Assembly (NCBI GenBank): GCA_012729015.1
Contig: JAAYDY010000044.1
Location: forward strand, 83,891-147,890
DNA from: Phycisphaerae bacterium
GTDB lineage: Bacteria; Planctomycetota; Phycisphaerae; FEN-1346; JAACEH01
DNA: 64,000 nt
Reading direction: 5' to 3'
Positions 1 to 21,970 of the stretch are shown here, piece after piece. Within the stretch, counting starts at the first letter, position 1, and each line of letters starts with the position of its first letter. The notes under the pieces are model-generated. The model searched no databases. It had not been told where the DNA came from and saw only the letters and a list, made by a program, of their open reading frames with translations. The position numbers and the translations under genes were made by a program.

Positions 1-779
1 AGAGCGAGCACATAATCCTGCGGCGCAATCGTTTCGTCGGCTATCGTGACGTGACCGGCGGCAACCCCGACATCACCCAGCGAGGAGCCATCCGCATCGG
101 CGGCGGCGCGACCAACGGCCGCGTTTATCACAATCTGTTCCATGACAACCAGCGAACGATCACCAGCTTCAACATGGGCAAGCCCGTGCCCGGCAACGTG
201 TGGAAGAACAACATCCTCTTCGACAACGCACAGACCGCATTCCTCGGCTTCAAAGACCTCCAGGGGCAGAATCGCATGCCGTTCCTTCACAATGTCCTGC
301 GAGGCAAGGCCGCTGGAGAGAAGCTCATCCAACTCGACAAGGAGTTCTATACGCTGCCCGAGGCGGCCGAGAAGTTCCCCGACCTCTATCGCGGCAACCT
401 GGACGCAGACCCGCAGTTCATCGACGCGGCAAAAGAGGATTTCCGCTTGAAGGATGCCTCGCCTTGCATCGACGCCGGCACAAGCCTGGCCGTGGCGACC
501 GCCGGCGGCCGCGGCAGGACAATCCCCGTTGACGATCCGCTCTGCTTCTGTGACGGTTGGGAACTGATCGACGGCGACGAGGTCGTTGTCGGCGCCAACG
601 CCCCCGCCAGAGTCGTCCAGGTCGATGACCAGAAGAAGACGCTCACGCTCGACCGCGATATTGCATGGAGCAGCGGCGACCCCGTCTCCCAGCCGTACTC
701 CGGGAAGGCCCCGGACATCGGTCCGTGTGAGTTCGAGGCGTCCTCGGCACAGGAGCCTCATGGCCTTGGTCAGCACTGA
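1..779 (+). CDS. Right-handed beta-helix protein, C-terminal part (5' truncated)
   Basis: The reading frame is open from the left edge (first full codon at base 3) to a stop at 777-779, so the N-terminus lies outside the window. The visible ~259 residues hold short turns typical of parallel beta-helix proteins (GRVYHNLFHDN, VWKNNILFDN) and the phrases DADPQFIDAAKEDFRLKDAS and PCIDAGT, which commonly end secreted planctomycete beta-helix proteins. A carbohydrate-binding or polysaccharide-lyase-like extracellular role is typical of the fold, but no catalytic residue can be assigned. The next gene starts 40 bases downstream on the same strand, so co-transcription is likely. Confidence 0.7.
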   Translation, partial: SEHIILRRNRFVGYRDVTGGNPDITQRGAIRIGGGATNGRVYHNLFHDNQRTITSFNMGKPVPGNVWKNNILFDNAQTAFLGFKDLQGQNRMPFLHNVLRGKAAGEKLIQLDKEFYTLPEAAEKFPDLYRGNLDADPQFIDAAKEDFRLKDASPCIDAGTSLAVATAGGRGRTIPVDDPLCFCDGWELIDGDEVVVGANAPARVVQVDDQKKTLTLDRDIAWSSGDPVSQPYSGKAPDIGPCEFEASSAQEPHGLGQH

Positions 780-14479: not shown

Positions 14480-17400
14480 ATGGCCACATCGGCGACGGTG
14501 ACTCTGCTGCTCGGCCCGGCGCGATCGCGCAAAGCCGCGACCGTCCGCACACGCTACCTGGACCTGGTGGCCGACTGCCCGCCGGGCGACCTGTCGCGAC
14601 GGGTCCTGCTCCTGGTGCCCACCGGCACGCGACGCCAGACCACCATCGACGCACTGCTGCGCGAGAGCCGCGACGGCCTCCTTGTGCAACCGAACGTCTG
14701 GACATTCCCCCAGTACGCCGAGTGGGCCCTTGGCCAGCTCGGCGCGCCCGTCCGCAGGGCCACGGAGTTGCAGCGGCACGGCATCCTCGCTGCGGCTCTT
14801 GCGTGGTGCGCCGCGAGGAAGCAGCTTCGCTACCTCCTGCCCATTGCCGACCGCCGAGGACTCGTGGATTCACTGGCCGACGTCATACGCCGACTGAAGA
14901 CTGAGGCTATCCGACCGCAGGACTTCGCCCGCGCCGCCGCCAAGAGCGGCCTGGCGCGGGATCTGGCGGCCGTCTACACCCGCTACCAGCACCAGTTCGA
15001 GACCTCCGGCCTGTACGACGATGCCGGCCTGTTCTGGCAGGCTCGCGAGGCGCTGGCGGCCGCCAAGGAGCGGTTCCCTTGGCCGGCTCACGTACTCGTG
15101 GACGGATTCCAGGACTTCTCCAGCCCCCAGCGCGCCATTCTCCGCACACTGTACGACCATGGCGCGCAACTGGTGGTCACTCTCCCGTGCTGCCGCGAGC
15201 GGCCCGAGCTGTTTGCCCCGACGCTTCGCACGCTCGACCACCTCCAGACCGCGTTCGATCACCACATCGCGGTCGAAGAGTTTCCGGCTCCTGACGCCAC
15301 AACGCCCCTGGCGCGCGTACAGGAGTCGCTGTTCGCCGACTCCGCCGCACCGCCCCACCCCGACGCCGCCTCGGCCGTCACGTTTGCCGAGACCGCCGGA
15401 TACACGCGAGAAGTGGAGTTCCTGGCCCAGCGCATCAAACAGTGTCTCGTCGCGGGCACGGACGGCCATTCATCGGATGGCGACGCAATCCGCCCTGCCG
15501 ACATTGCGATCATCCTGCCGGCACGACAACCCTACGAGGACCTCATCGCCCGTGTTTTCCCGAGCTACGGCATTCCCGTCAACGGGCTGTCCGGAACCTC
15601 GCTGATCCGTATGCCGCTGGTGCGGTGGCTGCTCGAATTGCTCCGCCTGCCGCTGAACAGCTTCGCCTATGGGGCGCTCGTCGGCGTTCTTCGCTCACCG
15701 TACTTCCCGTGTGAGTTGCTCGACGCCGAGCCGCGCACGCTGGAAGCCGCCTGCCGCATGCTCCATTGCGTTGGAGCCTTCGAGGGGCTGGCCGATCATG
15801 TCGAAGCCCTTCGCGACCACAGCCGCAGGCTTCGCGAGGGGTCCCTTTCGGGCGACGCCGACGCCGCGGAGTCTGCGGCCGAAGCCGATCTGGCCGACAA
15901 GGTGGTTCTGCTTCTGCAGCGCCTCGCGGCCCGGCTTGGCGTTCTGCCGCAACGGGCATCGCGGGCACATCATCTGGCAGCAACCAGAACCCTCGTGGCC
16001 GAGTGCCGGTTCCGGTCGGCTGCAATCGCGGCAAACGACCGGGAACTGGCGGCCCGGGATCTTGCGTGCCTGTCCGCCCTGGAAGCCGTCATCGCGGAGA
16101 TGAGCGGACTCGACGAGTACGCCCCGGCCGACTCCCTGACGGCTGCGGACTTCGTCGCGGAACTGGAGGAGGCCCTGGCCGCAGCCACCGTGGCGCCGCC
16201 GCGACATGCCGGCGGCGCGGTCCACGTGCTCGATACAAGGTCGTCGCGTGCCCTGACGTTCAAAGTTGTCGCCCTGCCCGGCCTGACTGACGGCCTTTGG
16301 CCGCAGCCGATGCGATCCGATCTGGCCGACGCGCCCCAGTCGCAGGATTCGCTGGCCGGCGCCGGCCTGAGTTCCCCCGACCGCCGCGATCATCTGGCCG
16401 AGCAGCGGTTCCTGTTCTACATGGCGGCGTCGCGTGCCTCGCAGCACCTGATCGTCACGCGACCGGCTGCCGACGAGGCCGGACGCCCGCTCTGTGCCAG
16501 TCCATTCTGGGCCGACATGGCTCGTGCCGTGTTCGGTCGGCCGCATCCCGAGGTCCATGTCGTCACGGCCCGCGACGCCGAGCAGCCGACCGAAGGCATC
16601 GCCGGCCCCGAGGCCCTGCGCCGTGCCGCCATGTCCGCCCTGGCCTCCCCCGACGCACGCGGGCTGGCCGTGCTGGCTGCGGCCCACGCGGTCGACTCCG
16701 TGATCAGGCCGACGTGTCACGCCGCGGCAGTCATCCTGGAGCGCGAATCACCTCGCCCCTTCGGCCGGTTCGACGGCGTGCTGAGCGATGGCCGAATCGC
16801 CGAGGCGCTGGCCTCCACCTACCCGTCGGCCCGCCCGCTCAGCATCACCAGCCTGGAGCATTTCGCCCAGTGCCCGTTCTGGTTCTTCGCCGAGACCGTG
16901 TGCCGGCTCGACGCCGTGGAGCCGCCCGAGGAGACCCTGCTCGACGATCAGGCCGGGTTGCTCTACCACGATATTCTGTGCGAGTTCTACCGGACGTGCC
17001 GCCTGGATCAGACGGTGGGCGCCCGACTGAACCGGGTGCCACCGGACCGCCTTCGCCACGCAATGTCACAGGCCGTGGACCGCGTCTTCGCGCGACGGTC
17101 GGGCCAGACGCAGTCTACGTTGCCCGCCCTGCTGGCGATTCAGCGAGAGGATATCCGCGAGCGGCTACTGGCCTACGTGGAGGCAGAAGCCGAGCGCTGC
17201 GCCGACCTGGCCTACGATCTCGAGCCTCTGGTCTTCGAGTGGTCCTTCGGCATGCCTGTTCCGGACAACGCTGCGGGCGAAAGCACCGAGTCGCCCGCCG
17301 TCGTGCCATCGCCCTATGGACCGATACGCCTGCGTGGCCGCGTGGACCGCATCGACCGCGCCACCGACGCTACGGCCGGCCGCGCGTGGCTCGAGATCGT

Positions 17401-17782
17401 GGACTACAAGAGCGGCAGCCGCCCCGGCAACCTGGCGTCCCGGCTGCGCGACGGGCTGGTGCTCCAGTTGCCGCTGTATCTACTGGCGGCGGATCAACTG
17501 CTGTCGCGCTCCCTGAAGGCGCCCGCCGGACTCGGCGCCTACTACTATCTCCGCGACGTGCGGCACCACGTCGGCGTCACGTTGACCGGGGACAAGGCCG
17601 ACTCGGGGCGCGAGCTGGTCGAACTTGCGACCGCCCGGGCGGTGGCAGCCATTGCCGCCTGTCGACGCGGCGAGTTTCCGCCGGTGTCGGCCGACGAGTG
17701 CCCCTCGTATTGCCCCTACGACCGCCTGTGCCGCGCCGCCCGCTGGCGCGTTGATCGCAAGATGCCGGAGGCCCGGCCATGA
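14480..17782 (+). CDS. addB: AddB-like ATP-dependent nuclease subunit with Fe-S PD-(D/E)XK domain
   Basis: This 1,100-residue protein is the AddB-type partner of a RecBCD-class end-resection complex. The N-terminus has a helicase-like fold whose nucleotide loop reads GPARSRKA rather than GxxGxGKT/S, so it is probably inactive. The C-terminal nuclease carries the active-site strand EIVDYKSGS (Asp975, Lys977). It also has the four-cysteine iron-sulphur staple: Cys798 in FAQCPFW, and Cys1074, Cys1078 and Cys1084 in CPSYCPYDRLC. The ATG at 14480 follows pgsA by 10 bases. The stop overlaps the addA start as ATGA, so the two subunits are translationally coupled. Confidence 0.88.
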   Translation: MATSATVTLLLGPARSRKAATVRTRYLDLVADCPPGDLSRRVLLLVPTGTRRQTTIDALLRESRDGLLVQPNVWTFPQYAEWALGQLGAPVRRATELQRHGILAAALAWCAARKQLRYLLPIADRRGLVDSLADVIRRLKTEAIRPQDFARAAAKSGLARDLAAVYTRYQHQFETSGLYDDAGLFWQAREALAAAKERFPWPAHVLVDGFQDFSSPQRAILRTLYDHGAQLVVTLPCCRERPELFAPTLRTLDHLQTAFDHHIAVEEFPAPDATTPLARVQESLFADSAAPPHPDAASAVTFAETAGYTREVEFLAQRIKQCLVAGTDGHSSDGDAIRPADIAIILPARQPYEDLIARVFPSYGIPVNGLSGTSLIRMPLVRWLLELLRLPLNSFAYGALVGVLRSPYFPCELLDAEPRTLEAACRMLHCVGAFEGLADHVEALRDHSRRLREGSLSGDADAAESAAEADLADKVVLLLQRLAARLGVLPQRASRAHHLAATRTLVAECRFRSAAIAANDRELAARDLACLSALEAVIAEMSGLDEYAPADSLTAADFVAELEEALAAATVAPPRHAGGAVHVLDTRSSRALTFKVVALPGLTDGLWPQPMRSDLADAPQSQDSLAGAGLSSPDRRDHLAEQRFLFYMAASRASQHLIVTRPAADEAGRPLCASPFWADMARAVFGRPHPEVHVVTARDAEQPTEGIAGPEALRRAAMSALASPDARGLAVLAAAHAVDSVIRPTCHAAAVILERESPRPFGRFDGVLSDGRIAEALASTYPSARPLSITSLEHFAQCPFWFFAETVCRLDAVEPPEETLLDDQAGLLYHDILCEFYRTCRLDQTVGARLNRVPPDRLRHAMSQAVDRVFARRSGQTQSTLPALLAIQREDIRERLLAYVEAEAERCADLAYDLEPLVFEWSFGMPVPDNAAGESTESPAVVPSPYGPIRLRGRVDRIDRATDATAGRAWLEIVDYKSGSRPGNLASRLRDGLVLQLPLYLLAADQLLSRSLKAPAGLGAYYYLRDVRHHVGVTLTGDKADSGRELVELATARAVAAIAACRRGEFPPVSADECPSYCPYDRLCRAARWRVDRKMPEARP

Positions 17783-20700
17783 CGCTCACCAGCGAACAAC
17801 ACGAAGCGGTCGCCCGCCTGGACGACAACCTCTGCGTGGTGGCCGGTGCCGGCACCGGCAAGACGCGCGTCCTGGTCGAACGATTCCTCCGTCTCCTGGA
17901 GGTCGGCGGCTGCGAGCCGTCGCAGTTGGCGGCCATCACCTTCACCGAGAAGGCCGCCGCCGAGATGCTGTCGCGACTGCGTGACCGCTGCGCGGAGCGC
18001 ATGGCACGGGCCGACGACGACGCCCAGCGACAGATCTGGAAGCGCCGCCTGGAAGACCTCGGCGACGCTGCCGTGACGACGATCCACGGATTCTGTCGCC
18101 GACTGTTGGCACAGAACCCTGTGGAAGCGGGGCTCGATCCCCGCTTCACCATTCTGTCCGACGCTCGGTCGTCGCAGGTGATGGGCGACAGCGTTCACCG
18201 GACGCTGCGCGAGATGTTCGAGGCGTCCGATCCGGACGTTCTGACCGCCACGCAGGCGTACTCCCTGCCGACCCTTCAACAGATGCTGCGCGACGCCCTG
18301 CTGCACCGGGATGGCGTGCGCATCGCCGCGGCCCGGAGCGAACGCCCGTTGCCGGAGCAACTGGCGGACCTGGAGCAGGTCGTCACGTCAGCGATGACGG
18401 CCGCCTGCGACGGGCTCCTGGCGGATGCCGGCCTCACCCCCCTGAGGCACATGGTCACATCCGTCATGGGCCCCCAGGGCGACGGGCGCGAACTCTCGCG
18501 CGAGGTGGCCGCCGAGGCGCTCGCCATGATCGCGCCGGACCAGCCGTCCACGACGCGCATCGCCGGACTCCGTAACCTCGCGGGCCTCAGCCTGCTCAAG
18601 CGCGGATCGCCCGGCAAGTGGCCCAGTCCCGAGCACCATCAGCAGATGGGCGACGCCTTGAAAGCCTTGCGGGAGGCCGCCAGGACGGCCCTGTCCAACT
18701 GCGATGTCGCCGCCGCCGACCTCTGGCCGCGGCAACTGGAGCTCGCGCGGGCCGTGGCCAGGGTGGCGATGCGCACGATCGCGACGTTCCAGGCGGCCAA
18801 GCGAAACCTTGCCGCCGTGGACTTCGACGACCTCCTGCTGATGGCCCGCGACCTGCTGCGCGACCACCCGGACGTGCGGCAGCGCGTCGGACGCCGATTC
18901 CGCCAGATCCTCGTCGATGAGCTCCAGGACACCGATCCGGTCCAGATGGAGATCGTCACGCTGCTCCTGACCGACGGCGCGGCGGAAGTCGCGGCCCTGC
19001 GGCCGGGCAGCTTCTTCGGCGTCGGCGACCCCAAGCAGTCGATCTACCGTTTTCGCGGGGCGGACGTGCAGGTGTTCCGTCGCATCACAGACGAGTTGGG
19101 GCCGTCGCATACGGTACCGCTGACCCGAACATTCCGCTTCCACCAGGGACTGGCCAACGCCACCAATGCCTTGTTCGCGCCGTTGCTCGCAGGGGACTTC
19201 ATCCGCCTGTCGGCGCACGACACACGGACGCCGCCCGGCTGTGTGGAACTGCTGCTGACGGACCACGAGGATGACGACCGGGCCGAGGCGAGGCGCGCCC
19301 TGGAGGCCGCACGCATTGCCGCGCGCATCGGCGACCTTGTGCGCACAGGAAGCATGCGCTACGGCGAGATCGCCATCCTGATGCACCGCCAGACGCAGAT
19401 TCACGCCTACGAAGAGGCGTTGAAGCGGCTCGATATCCCCTACTATGTGGTCAGCGGCCGACGGTTCTACGAGCAGGACGAGGTGCACGATGCCCTTGCC
19501 GCCTTGAGGGCCCTGACCCATCCTCACGACGACCTGGCCGTGGCCGTGGTGCTGCGCGGTCCGCTGTTCGGCCTGTCCGACGACGCCCTGTACACGCTCT
19601 GCCGCCACAAGCCACTCGCATCAGCCCTCCGCGATGACGCGGTCGCAGCAACCTTGTCGCCTTCGGACGCGGCCAAGGTGCGACGCGCCGCGACCTGGTT
19701 CGCCCACTTCGGTCCACGCGCCGGTCGCATCGGCACAGCCCAACTGCTCCAGGGAATCGTGTTTCAGGGTATCCCTTCCGACAACAGCGCCGACAGCTGT
19801 CCGTCGCTGGCCCACGTGCTTCTACCCCAGTTCATCGGACAACAGCGCTACGCGAACCTGCGACGGCTGCTGGAACTGGCGCGTCAGGCCGACCTCGTCG
19901 GCGCGTCGCGCATCGAGGACTTCCTGGCCGAGGTCGAGGCGGGCCTCCGCGAGGGCGTCCGCGAGGCCGAGGCGCCGCTGGATGTCGAGGGCGGCAATTC
20001 GGTCCTGATGATGACCGTCCACGCCGCCAAGGGGCTGGAGTTCCCCTGCGTCATCCTGGCCAACGCCGATGCCGAGCGGCGCGGCGGCACGGGGCCGTCG
20101 TTCTACGCCGATCCCCGCCTTGGCTTTGCCCCCAGGCGGCCGGACCGGCGGCCGAACGAGGAGGAGCCGGCCGCCTACACCCTGGCCTGCCGCGAGGACC
20201 ACGCCCAGGAGAACGAGGAGTTCCGGCGGCTGTTCTATGTCGCCGCGACGCGAGCCGAGGAGCGGCTCATTCTGTCGGGGTCCAAGACGCTCGCCCCCGG
20301 CAGCTGGCTCGCCATGACGTTCCAGGTGGCTGATCTCGACCTGGCCGCGCAGGCGTCCGGCAACCTGAAGGAGCCTCTGGCCCACGGCGGTCCAATGACG
20401 GTGGATCTGGCCACAGCCCCTTCGACGGCCTCGCATCGCGCGTCGGCCGACCTCGGCCCGCTGGCGAAGGTTTTTCACGAGGGCGAACTGAACGACGCCG
20501 AAATGGACCGCCTGCTGGTCCGCTCCGCCGATGCCGCCCTGACGGGCCGACTGGCCGCCCAATGCTCGCACGTGGCCGAAGGCGGCGCAACCGTTCATCT
20601 CACAGCCACGTCGCTGACGGATTACGCCGTCTGCCCGGCCAAGTACTACCTCAGGCACGTACTGGGACTGGACGAGCGCGTTGCCGCGCCGGCATTCGAC

Positions 20701-21357
20701 GACACGGGGGGCCTGAATGCCGCGGCCATCGGGACCGTGGTGCACGAGTACCTTGAGCGGTGCGACGATCCGACGCAGCCGGCAGGCGAGGATGCCCTGC
20801 GGCACCTGGTTCTTCGAGAGCCCCGCATCCGCGCGGATCAGCGCGAGGAGGCCTTGGCTGTGGCGGGGCGACACCTGGAGGCCTTCCGGGAGACGGCCCT
20901 GGCCGGGGAGATTGCCGCCGCGGCCAGACGCAACGGACACCTGTTCCGAGAGTTACGATTTTCCATGGCCCACACCGTCGCCGAGGGGAGCGGTGCCGCA
21001 GGGGCTGCGGTCATCAGCGGCACCATCGATCTGCTCTTTATGGACAGTCGCGGAGACTGGGTTCTTGTGGACTACAAGACCGACCATATCGCTCCCGAGG
21101 ATGCACGCGAGCGTACGATTCGCTATCTTCCACAGCTTCAGGTGTACCGAATGGCGGCGAGGAAATTTCTCAAAATAAACGCAGTGAAGGCTTGCCTTGC
21201 ATTCCTGAGCGCGGGTATAGTTGAGGATATCGAAGACCTTTCTGTCCATACCGTGGTGGACCGTCTGGTGGCAGGTATTGCCGCACAGCGGTTCAGGCCG
21301 GGTGACGCGTGCCGCGACTCTTGTGCGTACGAAGCGTTCTGCCGCATGTCGTCGTAG
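17779..21357 (+). CDS. addA: AddA-like UvrD-family helicase-nuclease, with Fe-S nuclease motif
   Basis: This 1,192-residue helicase-nuclease resects double-strand breaks with AddB. Superfamily 1 motifs are AGAGTGKT (22-29), VDELQDTD, GDPKQSIYRFRGAD, TVHAAKGLEF and VAATRAEERL. The C-terminal PD-(D/E)XK domain has LVDYKTDH (Asp1098, Lys1100). Unusually it also has a full cysteine staple: Cys952 in YAVCPAKYY, then Cys1178, Cys1182 and Cys1188, spaced exactly as in the adjacent addB. In the well-studied Bacillus complex only AddB carries this cluster. The start overlaps the addB stop by four bases. Confidence 0.92.
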   Translation: MTLTSEQHEAVARLDDNLCVVAGAGTGKTRVLVERFLRLLEVGGCEPSQLAAITFTEKAAAEMLSRLRDRCAERMARADDDAQRQIWKRRLEDLGDAAVTTIHGFCRRLLAQNPVEAGLDPRFTILSDARSSQVMGDSVHRTLREMFEASDPDVLTATQAYSLPTLQQMLRDALLHRDGVRIAAARSERPLPEQLADLEQVVTSAMTAACDGLLADAGLTPLRHMVTSVMGPQGDGRELSREVAAEALAMIAPDQPSTTRIAGLRNLAGLSLLKRGSPGKWPSPEHHQQMGDALKALREAARTALSNCDVAAADLWPRQLELARAVARVAMRTIATFQAAKRNLAAVDFDDLLLMARDLLRDHPDVRQRVGRRFRQILVDELQDTDPVQMEIVTLLLTDGAAEVAALRPGSFFGVGDPKQSIYRFRGADVQVFRRITDELGPSHTVPLTRTFRFHQGLANATNALFAPLLAGDFIRLSAHDTRTPPGCVELLLTDHEDDDRAEARRALEAARIAARIGDLVRTGSMRYGEIAILMHRQTQIHAYEEALKRLDIPYYVVSGRRFYEQDEVHDALAALRALTHPHDDLAVAVVLRGPLFGLSDDALYTLCRHKPLASALRDDAVAATLSPSDAAKVRRAATWFAHFGPRAGRIGTAQLLQGIVFQGIPSDNSADSCPSLAHVLLPQFIGQQRYANLRRLLELARQADLVGASRIEDFLAEVEAGLREGVREAEAPLDVEGGNSVLMMTVHAAKGLEFPCVILANADAERRGGTGPSFYADPRLGFAPRRPDRRPNEEEPAAYTLACREDHAQENEEFRRLFYVAATRAEERLILSGSKTLAPGSWLAMTFQVADLDLAAQASGNLKEPLAHGGPMTVDLATAPSTASHRASADLGPLAKVFHEGELNDAEMDRLLVRSADAALTGRLAAQCSHVAEGGATVHLTATSLTDYAVCPAKYYLRHVLGLDERVAAPAFDDTGGLNAAAIGTVVHEYLERCDDPTQPAGEDALRHLVLREPRIRADQREEALAVAGRHLEAFRETALAGEIAAAARRNGHLFRELRFSMAHTVAEGSGAAGAAVISGTIDLLFMDSRGDWVLVDYKTDHIAPEDARERTIRYLPQLQVYRMAARKFLKINAVKACLAFLSAGIVEDIEDLSVHTVVDRLVAGIAAQRFRPGDACRDSCAYEAFCRMSS

Positions 21358-21457: not shown

Positions 21458-21970
21458 ATGACCTACGATTTCAGCATCATCCGGCACATTCGCAAGAAGC
21501 TCGGGCTGACGATCTACGGCCTGAGCGAGAAGTGCGGCGTCAGCTACGTCGCCCTCAGCAAACTCGAGCGGAATCTGGGGAATCCTGAACTCAAGACACT
21601 CGACCGGATCGCCCGTGCCCTCGGCGTGCAGACGCACAACCTGCTCGCCCTGGCCGAGCACGACCGGCCGCAGGTGGTCGCCGCCGAACGCATCGTGGAC
21701 GAAAACGGCATCCACTTCCATCGCGCTTCGTTCGACGGCATTCACGTCTCGCAGGTCACCGCCCGCGCCGGCGCCCTGGTCTGCGCCGAGCACGAGCACC
21801 GCGACGACTACGAGGTCTGCTTCGTCCTCAAGGGCAAGGTCAAGCTCACTGTCCGCAACAGCGAATACGAGATTCTGCCCGGGCAGGCCGTGCGGTTCGA
21901 CTGCATCTTCGAGCATCGCTACGAGGCCGTCGAAGACTCCGAGGTGTTTCACGTCGTCACGCGGAAGTGA
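21458..21970 (+). CDS. XRE-family HTH regulator with C-terminal cupin domain
   Basis: This 170-residue protein has an XRE helix-turn-helix (about 5-62; IYGLSEKCGVSYVALSKLER then PELKTLDRIARALGV) joined to a cupin-2 barrel (about 95-168). The barrel shows HEHRDDYEVCFVLKGKVKL and EILPGQAVRF. Proteins of this layout are small-molecule-sensing repressors of metabolic genes. The two histidines and glutamate of the first cupin motif are present, so the barrel may bind a metal. The start has AAGGAG eight bases upstream. It follows addA by 100 bases and converges with the long minus-strand array. Its target is unknown. Confidence 0.85.
   Translation: MTYDFSIIRHIRKKLGLTIYGLSEKCGVSYVALSKLERNLGNPELKTLDRIARALGVQTHNLLALAEHDRPQVVAAERIVDENGIHFHRASFDGIHVSQVTARAGALVCAEHEHRDDYEVCFVLKGKVKLTVRNSEYEILPGQAVRFDCIFEHRYEAVEDSEVFHVVTRK

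Follow-up and report, generated by a model that had tools for sequence, protein, structure and literature searches.

Putative four-cysteine staples in both nuclease subunits of a divergent AddAB from a Phycisphaerae bacterium

Within the window, a 64,000-nucleotide stretch of contig JAAYDY010000044.1 from a Phycisphaerae bacterium, two adjacent genes on the + strand encode AddB (14480..17782, 1100 residues) and AddA (17779..21357, 1192 residues), the subunits of a double-strand-break resection complex. In both subunits, a nuclease domain with intact catalytic motifs is accompanied by four cysteines, one before the core and three in the tail. The likely explanation is an AddAB complex in which a metal staple of four cysteines, most likely [4Fe-4S], clamps each of the two nucleases, and in which the AddA staple is probably ancestral and has often been lost. 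In the available portions of the current literature, the AddB staple is taken as the sole cluster of AddAB. No description of an AddA cluster was found in the accessible parts of the open-licence literature, and an earlier mention is possible.

Eight cysteines in two nuclease domains

All features described below lie on the + strand. The PD-(D/E)XK nuclease domain of AddB, as delineated by Pfam and the model m8eb5143168b7, spans residues 787–1085 (16838..17734) and contains D956, D975 and K977. Its first staple cysteine, Cys798 (codon at 16871..16873), is aligned with Cys801 of Bacillus subtilis AddB (3u44_B), and Cys1074, Cys1078 and Cys1084 form a C-x3-C-x5-C triad in the tail CPSYCPYDRLC (17699..17731). 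The AddA domain, delineated by Pfam and the model mf1c8f138a148, comprises residues 940–1189 (20596..21345) with the motif residues H989, E1058, D1084, D1098, K1100, Q1119 and Y1123. Here, sequence and alignment place the first staple cysteine at Cys952 (codon at 20632..20634) and the C-x3-C-x5-C triad at Cys1178, Cys1182 and Cys1188 in the tail CRDSCAYEAFC (21310..21342). Translation and counting returned all eight positions, as well as the gene coordinates, exactly as in the original prediction that both subunits carry such a cysteine set. Both nucleases also have conserved catalytic residues in the alignments.

Window AddA has 18 cysteines in all. The original prediction had made the idea of an AddA cluster depend on conservation in orthologs, and C952, C1178, C1182 and C1188 are indeed Cys in 11 of 11 AddA relatives of the same order or class, which share 28–46% overall identity with window AddA and 24–35% in the nuclease domain. 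A further relative, L141, was excluded from this alignment for its early-ending frame, and possesses the first cysteine and two tail cysteines. Among the remaining 14 cysteines, C106 is Cys in all nine rows that cover it and C19 and C71 in four rows each, and the rest in none or one. The AddB triad is also found in L132–L135, which belong to the same family or order.

AlphaFold2 (AF2) models were obtained for the nuclease domains of AddA (mf1c8f138a148, predicted local distance difference test (pLDDT) 84.7, predicted template modelling score (pTM) 0.84) and AddB (m8eb5143168b7, pLDDT 84.8, pTM 0.85). Structural alignment by VIA-align revealed that the AddA model matches cluster-bearing nucleases from end to end, with a pLDDT of about 70 in the staple segment. 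It aligns over residues 1..267 to AdnA 9np6_A (Z 16.8, root-mean-square deviation (rmsd) 3.7, 236 aligned residues) and over 1..268 to AddB 3u4q_B (Z 12.3, rmsd 4.1, 240 aligned). The alignments to Cas4 8d3l_I (Z 13.8, rmsd 3.8, 183 aligned), Dna2 5eaw_A (Z 13.7, rmsd 4.5, 230 aligned) and the DUF3799 protein 3l0a (Z 14.5, rmsd 3.7, 208 aligned) run to residue 267 or 268, as do those to EXO5 and ACE1. The match to Bacillus AddA 4cei_A (Z 16.1, rmsd 3.0, 183 aligned) covers only residues 11..227 of the model, and the alignments to RecB, MGME1 and RecE end at 252 or earlier. The Z values of the whole-length and core-only groups overlap, and the point of the comparison lies in how far each alignment extends rather than in its rank. 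On the second condition of the original prediction, spatial closeness of the AddA cysteines in a model, this end-to-end match bears only indirectly.

A cluster held by one cysteine on the helical box just ahead of the core and three in a short loop at the C-terminus would join both ends of the domain. In Bacillus AddAB, AddA is the motor and the 3′-strand nuclease, and AddB is the 5′-strand nuclease. By homology, the AddA staple would fasten the end of the nuclease responsible for trimming the 3′-ended strand, the strand to which the accessible text of PMC6237815 assigns the AddA nuclease. The cluster of B. subtilis AddB is described in the available parts of three papers (PMC7430649, PMC4176176, PMC7311471) as important for structural integrity and DNA-end binding; by this precedent, the two clusters would plausibly be important for stability.

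Ancestry and distribution of the AddA cysteine set

A profile of the AddA nuclease (A2) found Bacillus AddA 3u44_A as its top PDB match (E 7.1e-21), over the core only (profile 51–212 of 267). This match runs to residue 1228 of the 1232-residue chain, which lacks both the tail and the box of the first cysteine. Conversely, 3u44_B matches window-type AddB through all four cysteines, in agreement with the earlier statement that the Bacillus enzyme has its staple cysteines in AddB only. 3u44_B is absent among the 27 PDB sequences matching the AddA nuclease profile at E ≤ 1. Mycobacterial AdnA (6ppu_A) matches A2 over 16–264, its cysteines falling under all four AddA positions; the sequences of alignment A2 were chosen to cover the whole domain, and the invariance of its cysteines is partly by construction. 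In a nuclease-core tree built from 159 columns without the staple parts (105 AddB and 120 AddA rows), AddA and AddB are split with one change at a support of 98*. Furthermore, a model of cluster-less AddA gives a higher score than an AddB model for 37 of the 39 two-cluster AddA cores. By its core, the nuclease of window AddA is a true AddA domain and not an import from AddB.

Scoring of the set covered 141 AddA loci that have a nuclease core and can be read at the 3′ end, comprising 82 planctomycete loci from searches of 294 and 61 genomes and 59 of the best 80 loci of a contig search; these are top-scoring matches rather than a random sample, and their states were read by pattern and by eye. 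Both the first cysteine (Cys1) and the tail triad are present in 39 loci and neither in 97, with two loci having Cys1 only, none the tail only and three being ambiguous (L007, L141, L150). Judged from these counts, the four cysteines of AddA are thus gained or lost together as a unit. None of the planctomycete families contains both states among its clearly scored loci. The last tail spacing is longer in three of the 39 two-cluster loci (L039, L042, L148). The pre-core box can still be aligned in nine of the 97 cluster-less AddA proteins, namely L160 of f31 and eight members of family f63. In the three that were read (L144, L160, L173), the cysteine is replaced and the tail triad is gone, the box of L173 reading AESPQRYY; on alignment, these vestigial boxes in planctomycete families f63 and f31 look like loss.

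A helicase tree of 139 rows, from which the short L136 and L137 were left out, requires 9 to 10 changes of the staple state, at least three of them forced by starred branches. A single clade of two-cluster AddA was rejected by the approximately unbiased (AU) test (p 8.5e-5; 91-row subset with 29 two-cluster rows, LG+G4, quick tree). Because AddB, AdnA, Cas4 and Dna2 share the staple architecture, repeated loss is favored over repeated gain, a direction that we infer from outgroup logic on an unrooted tree. Two-cluster AddA is probably ancestral on these grounds, its repeated loss being more likely than its repeated gain, and the one-cluster Bacillus AddAB is probably a derived form.

The partner subunit was followed in 113 loci with the AddB nuclease in view; in 12 of the 39 two-cluster loci, no AddB was seen in the fetched DNA. 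All 27 two-cluster loci in this set have the AddB triad, as do 53 of 72 loci with neither AddA element, two of two ambiguous loci, one of the two Cys1-only loci and 10 of 10 loci with AddA not scored. In evolutionary terms, these counts indicate that the AddA staple is dispensable and that the AddB staple is retained far more often. The 19 loci with neither an AddA cluster nor an AddB triad include Lactobacillales, alphaproteobacteria and the planctomycete loci L008–L012. In the latter, of family f31, the AddB tail triad is gone, with the first staple cysteine still in place, and none of the four AddA cysteines is left; L014 and L035, their neighbors on the tree, have kept the AddB triad. By this comparison, the absence of both clusters in L008–L012 is thus a recent loss.

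The original prediction had regarded two clusters in one resection complex as notable. The arrangement is real, but special neither to this genome nor to planctomycetes: two-cluster AddAB is likewise present in Bacillota, Myxococcota and Ignavibacteriota, which excludes a planctomycete-only peculiarity. The named loci outside planctomycetes include those of Thermoflavimicrobium, one metagenome-assembled genome (MAG) each from Tissierellia and Deltaproteobacteria, the latter assigned to Myxococcota, and two Ignavibacteria MAGs. Profile A2 is made of cluster-bearing sequences and its match counts are biased toward such AddA; in the family of Thermoflavimicrobium, it matches 14 of 23 genomes, with 11 of the 14 matches helicase-linked and all 11 bearing Cys1 and the triad, and the remaining three being short proteins without a helicase. 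It likewise matches 31 of 80 genomes in the phylum of L042 and 43 of 79 in that of L046, where the 11 best (L237–L247) and the five best (L207–L211), respectively, have Cys1 and the triad and the weaker ones are mixed. Weak helicase-linked matches (e.g., L214–L216, L220 and L233), which are possibly UvrD–Cas4-type fusions rather than AddA, were left uncounted. More than five residues precede the last cysteine in L039, L042, L237–L242 and L244–L247, from Ignavibacteria and their phylum; this wider spacing may reflect a different metal geometry. Within the class of the host itself, AddAB looks patchy, most sampled genomes having only weak UvrD-like matches and none of AddA grade.

Alternative explanations and implications

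Several observations weigh against the reading of the AddA set as a [4Fe-4S] staple inherited as a unit. Model confidence is moderate over the staple segment of AddA, with 10-residue block means of 68, 67 and 74. The AddA tail spacing varies from C-x1 to C-x4-C, followed by x5 up to x9 before the last cysteine, and is looser than that of AddB. In the DUF3799 putative exonuclease 3l0a, which has the same four-cysteine arrangement as window AddA, the accessible text of PMC3466216 reports zinc in the crystal. The Cys1-only loci L076 and L191 have no tail, and L007 retains just C-x5-C plus one other cysteine. On well-supported branches, co-change amounts to only three independent pairs, below significance. 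In addition, the SufBD family gave no match in the host genome (assembly 94% complete), and was matched in 14 of 14 control genomes. The host does encode a full-length NifU scaffold of 299 residues (L192), and with SufBD not matched, cluster assembly presumably relies on a NifU-type system.

The looser tail spacing and the zinc of 3l0a, which matches the AddA model, would suit a genuine AddA site that binds a structural zinc in place of a cluster. However, the best whole-length structural matches are AdnA chains, whose cluster is of the [4Fe-4S] type. The zinc of 3l0a is itself possibly an artefact, according to the available text of PMC3466216, and we consider a zinc staple unlikely. The cysteines could also be metal-free relics, as the cluster is dispensable, being missing from AddA in 97 of 141 loci, and partial sets exist in L007, L076 and L191. 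Such relics are hard to reconcile with four cysteines kept in every one of the 11 relatives at so low an identity of the nuclease domain, where nearly all other cysteines turn over, and this reading appears very doubtful.

If a cluster-bearing domain copied from the AddB type had replaced the AddA nuclease, this would explain the four-cysteine architecture common to both subunits, and two of the 39 two-cluster cores (L026 and L046) do score better with the AddB model. Nevertheless, the core tree, the scores of the other 37 cores and the PDB matches of the AddA profile rule against such a swap, which we hold to be extremely improbable. Two-cluster AddA with a cluster-less AddB occurs in 0 of 27 loci, as might be expected if the clusters, instead of being structural staples, formed a functional pair that controls the nucleases through redox or DNA-charge coupling. 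Yet 53 loci with an AddB triad have a cluster-less AddA and no pointer to electron transfer is seen in sequence or structure, making a functional pair very improbable. A bolder combination, in which AddAB started out with two clusters, the Bacillus enzyme descends from it in simplified form and the retained pairs act coupled by redox or DNA-charge signalling between the 3′- and 5′-strand nucleases, is improbable as a whole.

If AddA carries a cluster and this state is ancestral, studies of Bacillus AddAB would describe a reduced form of the enzyme, and lineages with and without the AddA staple would offer natural pairs for testing the role of a staple in a nuclease domain. Two-cluster resection enzymes could also be recognized by a simple test on the sequence, and the known resection mechanism is unchanged.

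Locus features and comparison with known systems

The ATG of addA overlaps the stop codon of addB by four bases (ATGA). Both reading frames were assigned by Pfam matches above cut-off, namely ADDB_N (E 3.8e-12) and PDDEXK_1 (E 1.5e-35) in AddB and UvrD-helicase, UvrD_C and PDDEXK_1 (E 2.6e-25) in AddA, and by their best PDB matches, B. subtilis AddB 3u44_B (E 5.4e-17) and AddA 3u44_A (E 7.5e-54). The neighboring genes encode the domains expected of the AddAB family, a superfamily 1A (SF1A, UvrD) motor with a C-terminal nuclease in AddA and a helicase-like N-terminus with a nuclease in AddB. Against the NCBIfam equivalog cut-offs, AddA reaches 311.6 of 707.65 bits for addA_Gpos and 304.7 of 860.75 for addA_alphas, and AddB 114 of 903.7 for addB_Gpos and 70.7 of 486.5 for addB_alphas. 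As these cut-offs are missed by far, the enzyme is, by profile score, a divergent AddAB outside the Gram-positive and alphaproteobacterial NCBIfam subfamilies. AddB and AddA are the only two PDDEXK_1 places in the whole genome (E ≤ 0.001). Just downstream of addA, the gene at 21458–21970 (+) encodes a putative helix-turn-helix and cupin-like regulator, as read from its sequence.

The original prediction noted that the nucleotide loop of AddB looks inactive; its Walker A motif (P-loop) is indeed degenerate, reading GPARSRKA at residues 12–19 (14513..14536). The same-order relatives L133 and L134 have GPARSGKG and GPARSGKA, and L035 has GPARSGKT; the erosion of the loop in these sequences is real and looks stepwise within the order. 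By a simple pattern applied to the first 260 residues of each frame, 34 of 79 AddB frames have a canonical P-loop and 45 do not, so AddB without a P-loop is, by this pattern, common. As the two-cluster arrangement recurs in other phyla, the locus is less surprising than had been suggested.

Compared with B. subtilis AddAB (3u44, 3u4q, 4ceh–4cej), the window enzyme shares the addB–addA pair, the UvrD-like AddA, the C-terminal PD-(D/E)XK domain in both subunits and the four-cysteine staple of AddB. In contrast, Bacillus AddA stops right after the nuclease core, without the first-cysteine box and the tail, and a canonical P-loop, missing from window AddB, is present in the Bacillaceae AddB proteins of our sample (L061, L083). 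For DUF3799, we know of no helicase partner. The iron-staple nucleases Cas4, Dna2, EXO5, Bad and ACE1, among which Bad is listed in the accessible text of PMC7430649, are likewise of RecB type with one cysteine upstream and three in the tail, but have one staple domain per polypeptide and do not bear it in an AddA subunit. The mycobacterial AdnAB (6ppj, 6ppr, 6ppu, 7sjr, 9np6) contains in AdnA, described in the available text of PMC4824097 as its AddB-like subunit, four cysteines at the positions of window AddA, and AdnA ranks among the structures that best match the window AddA nuclease over its whole length. Different from the window enzyme, AdnB matches the profile over 59–215 only, so that AdnAB has its staple in one subunit.

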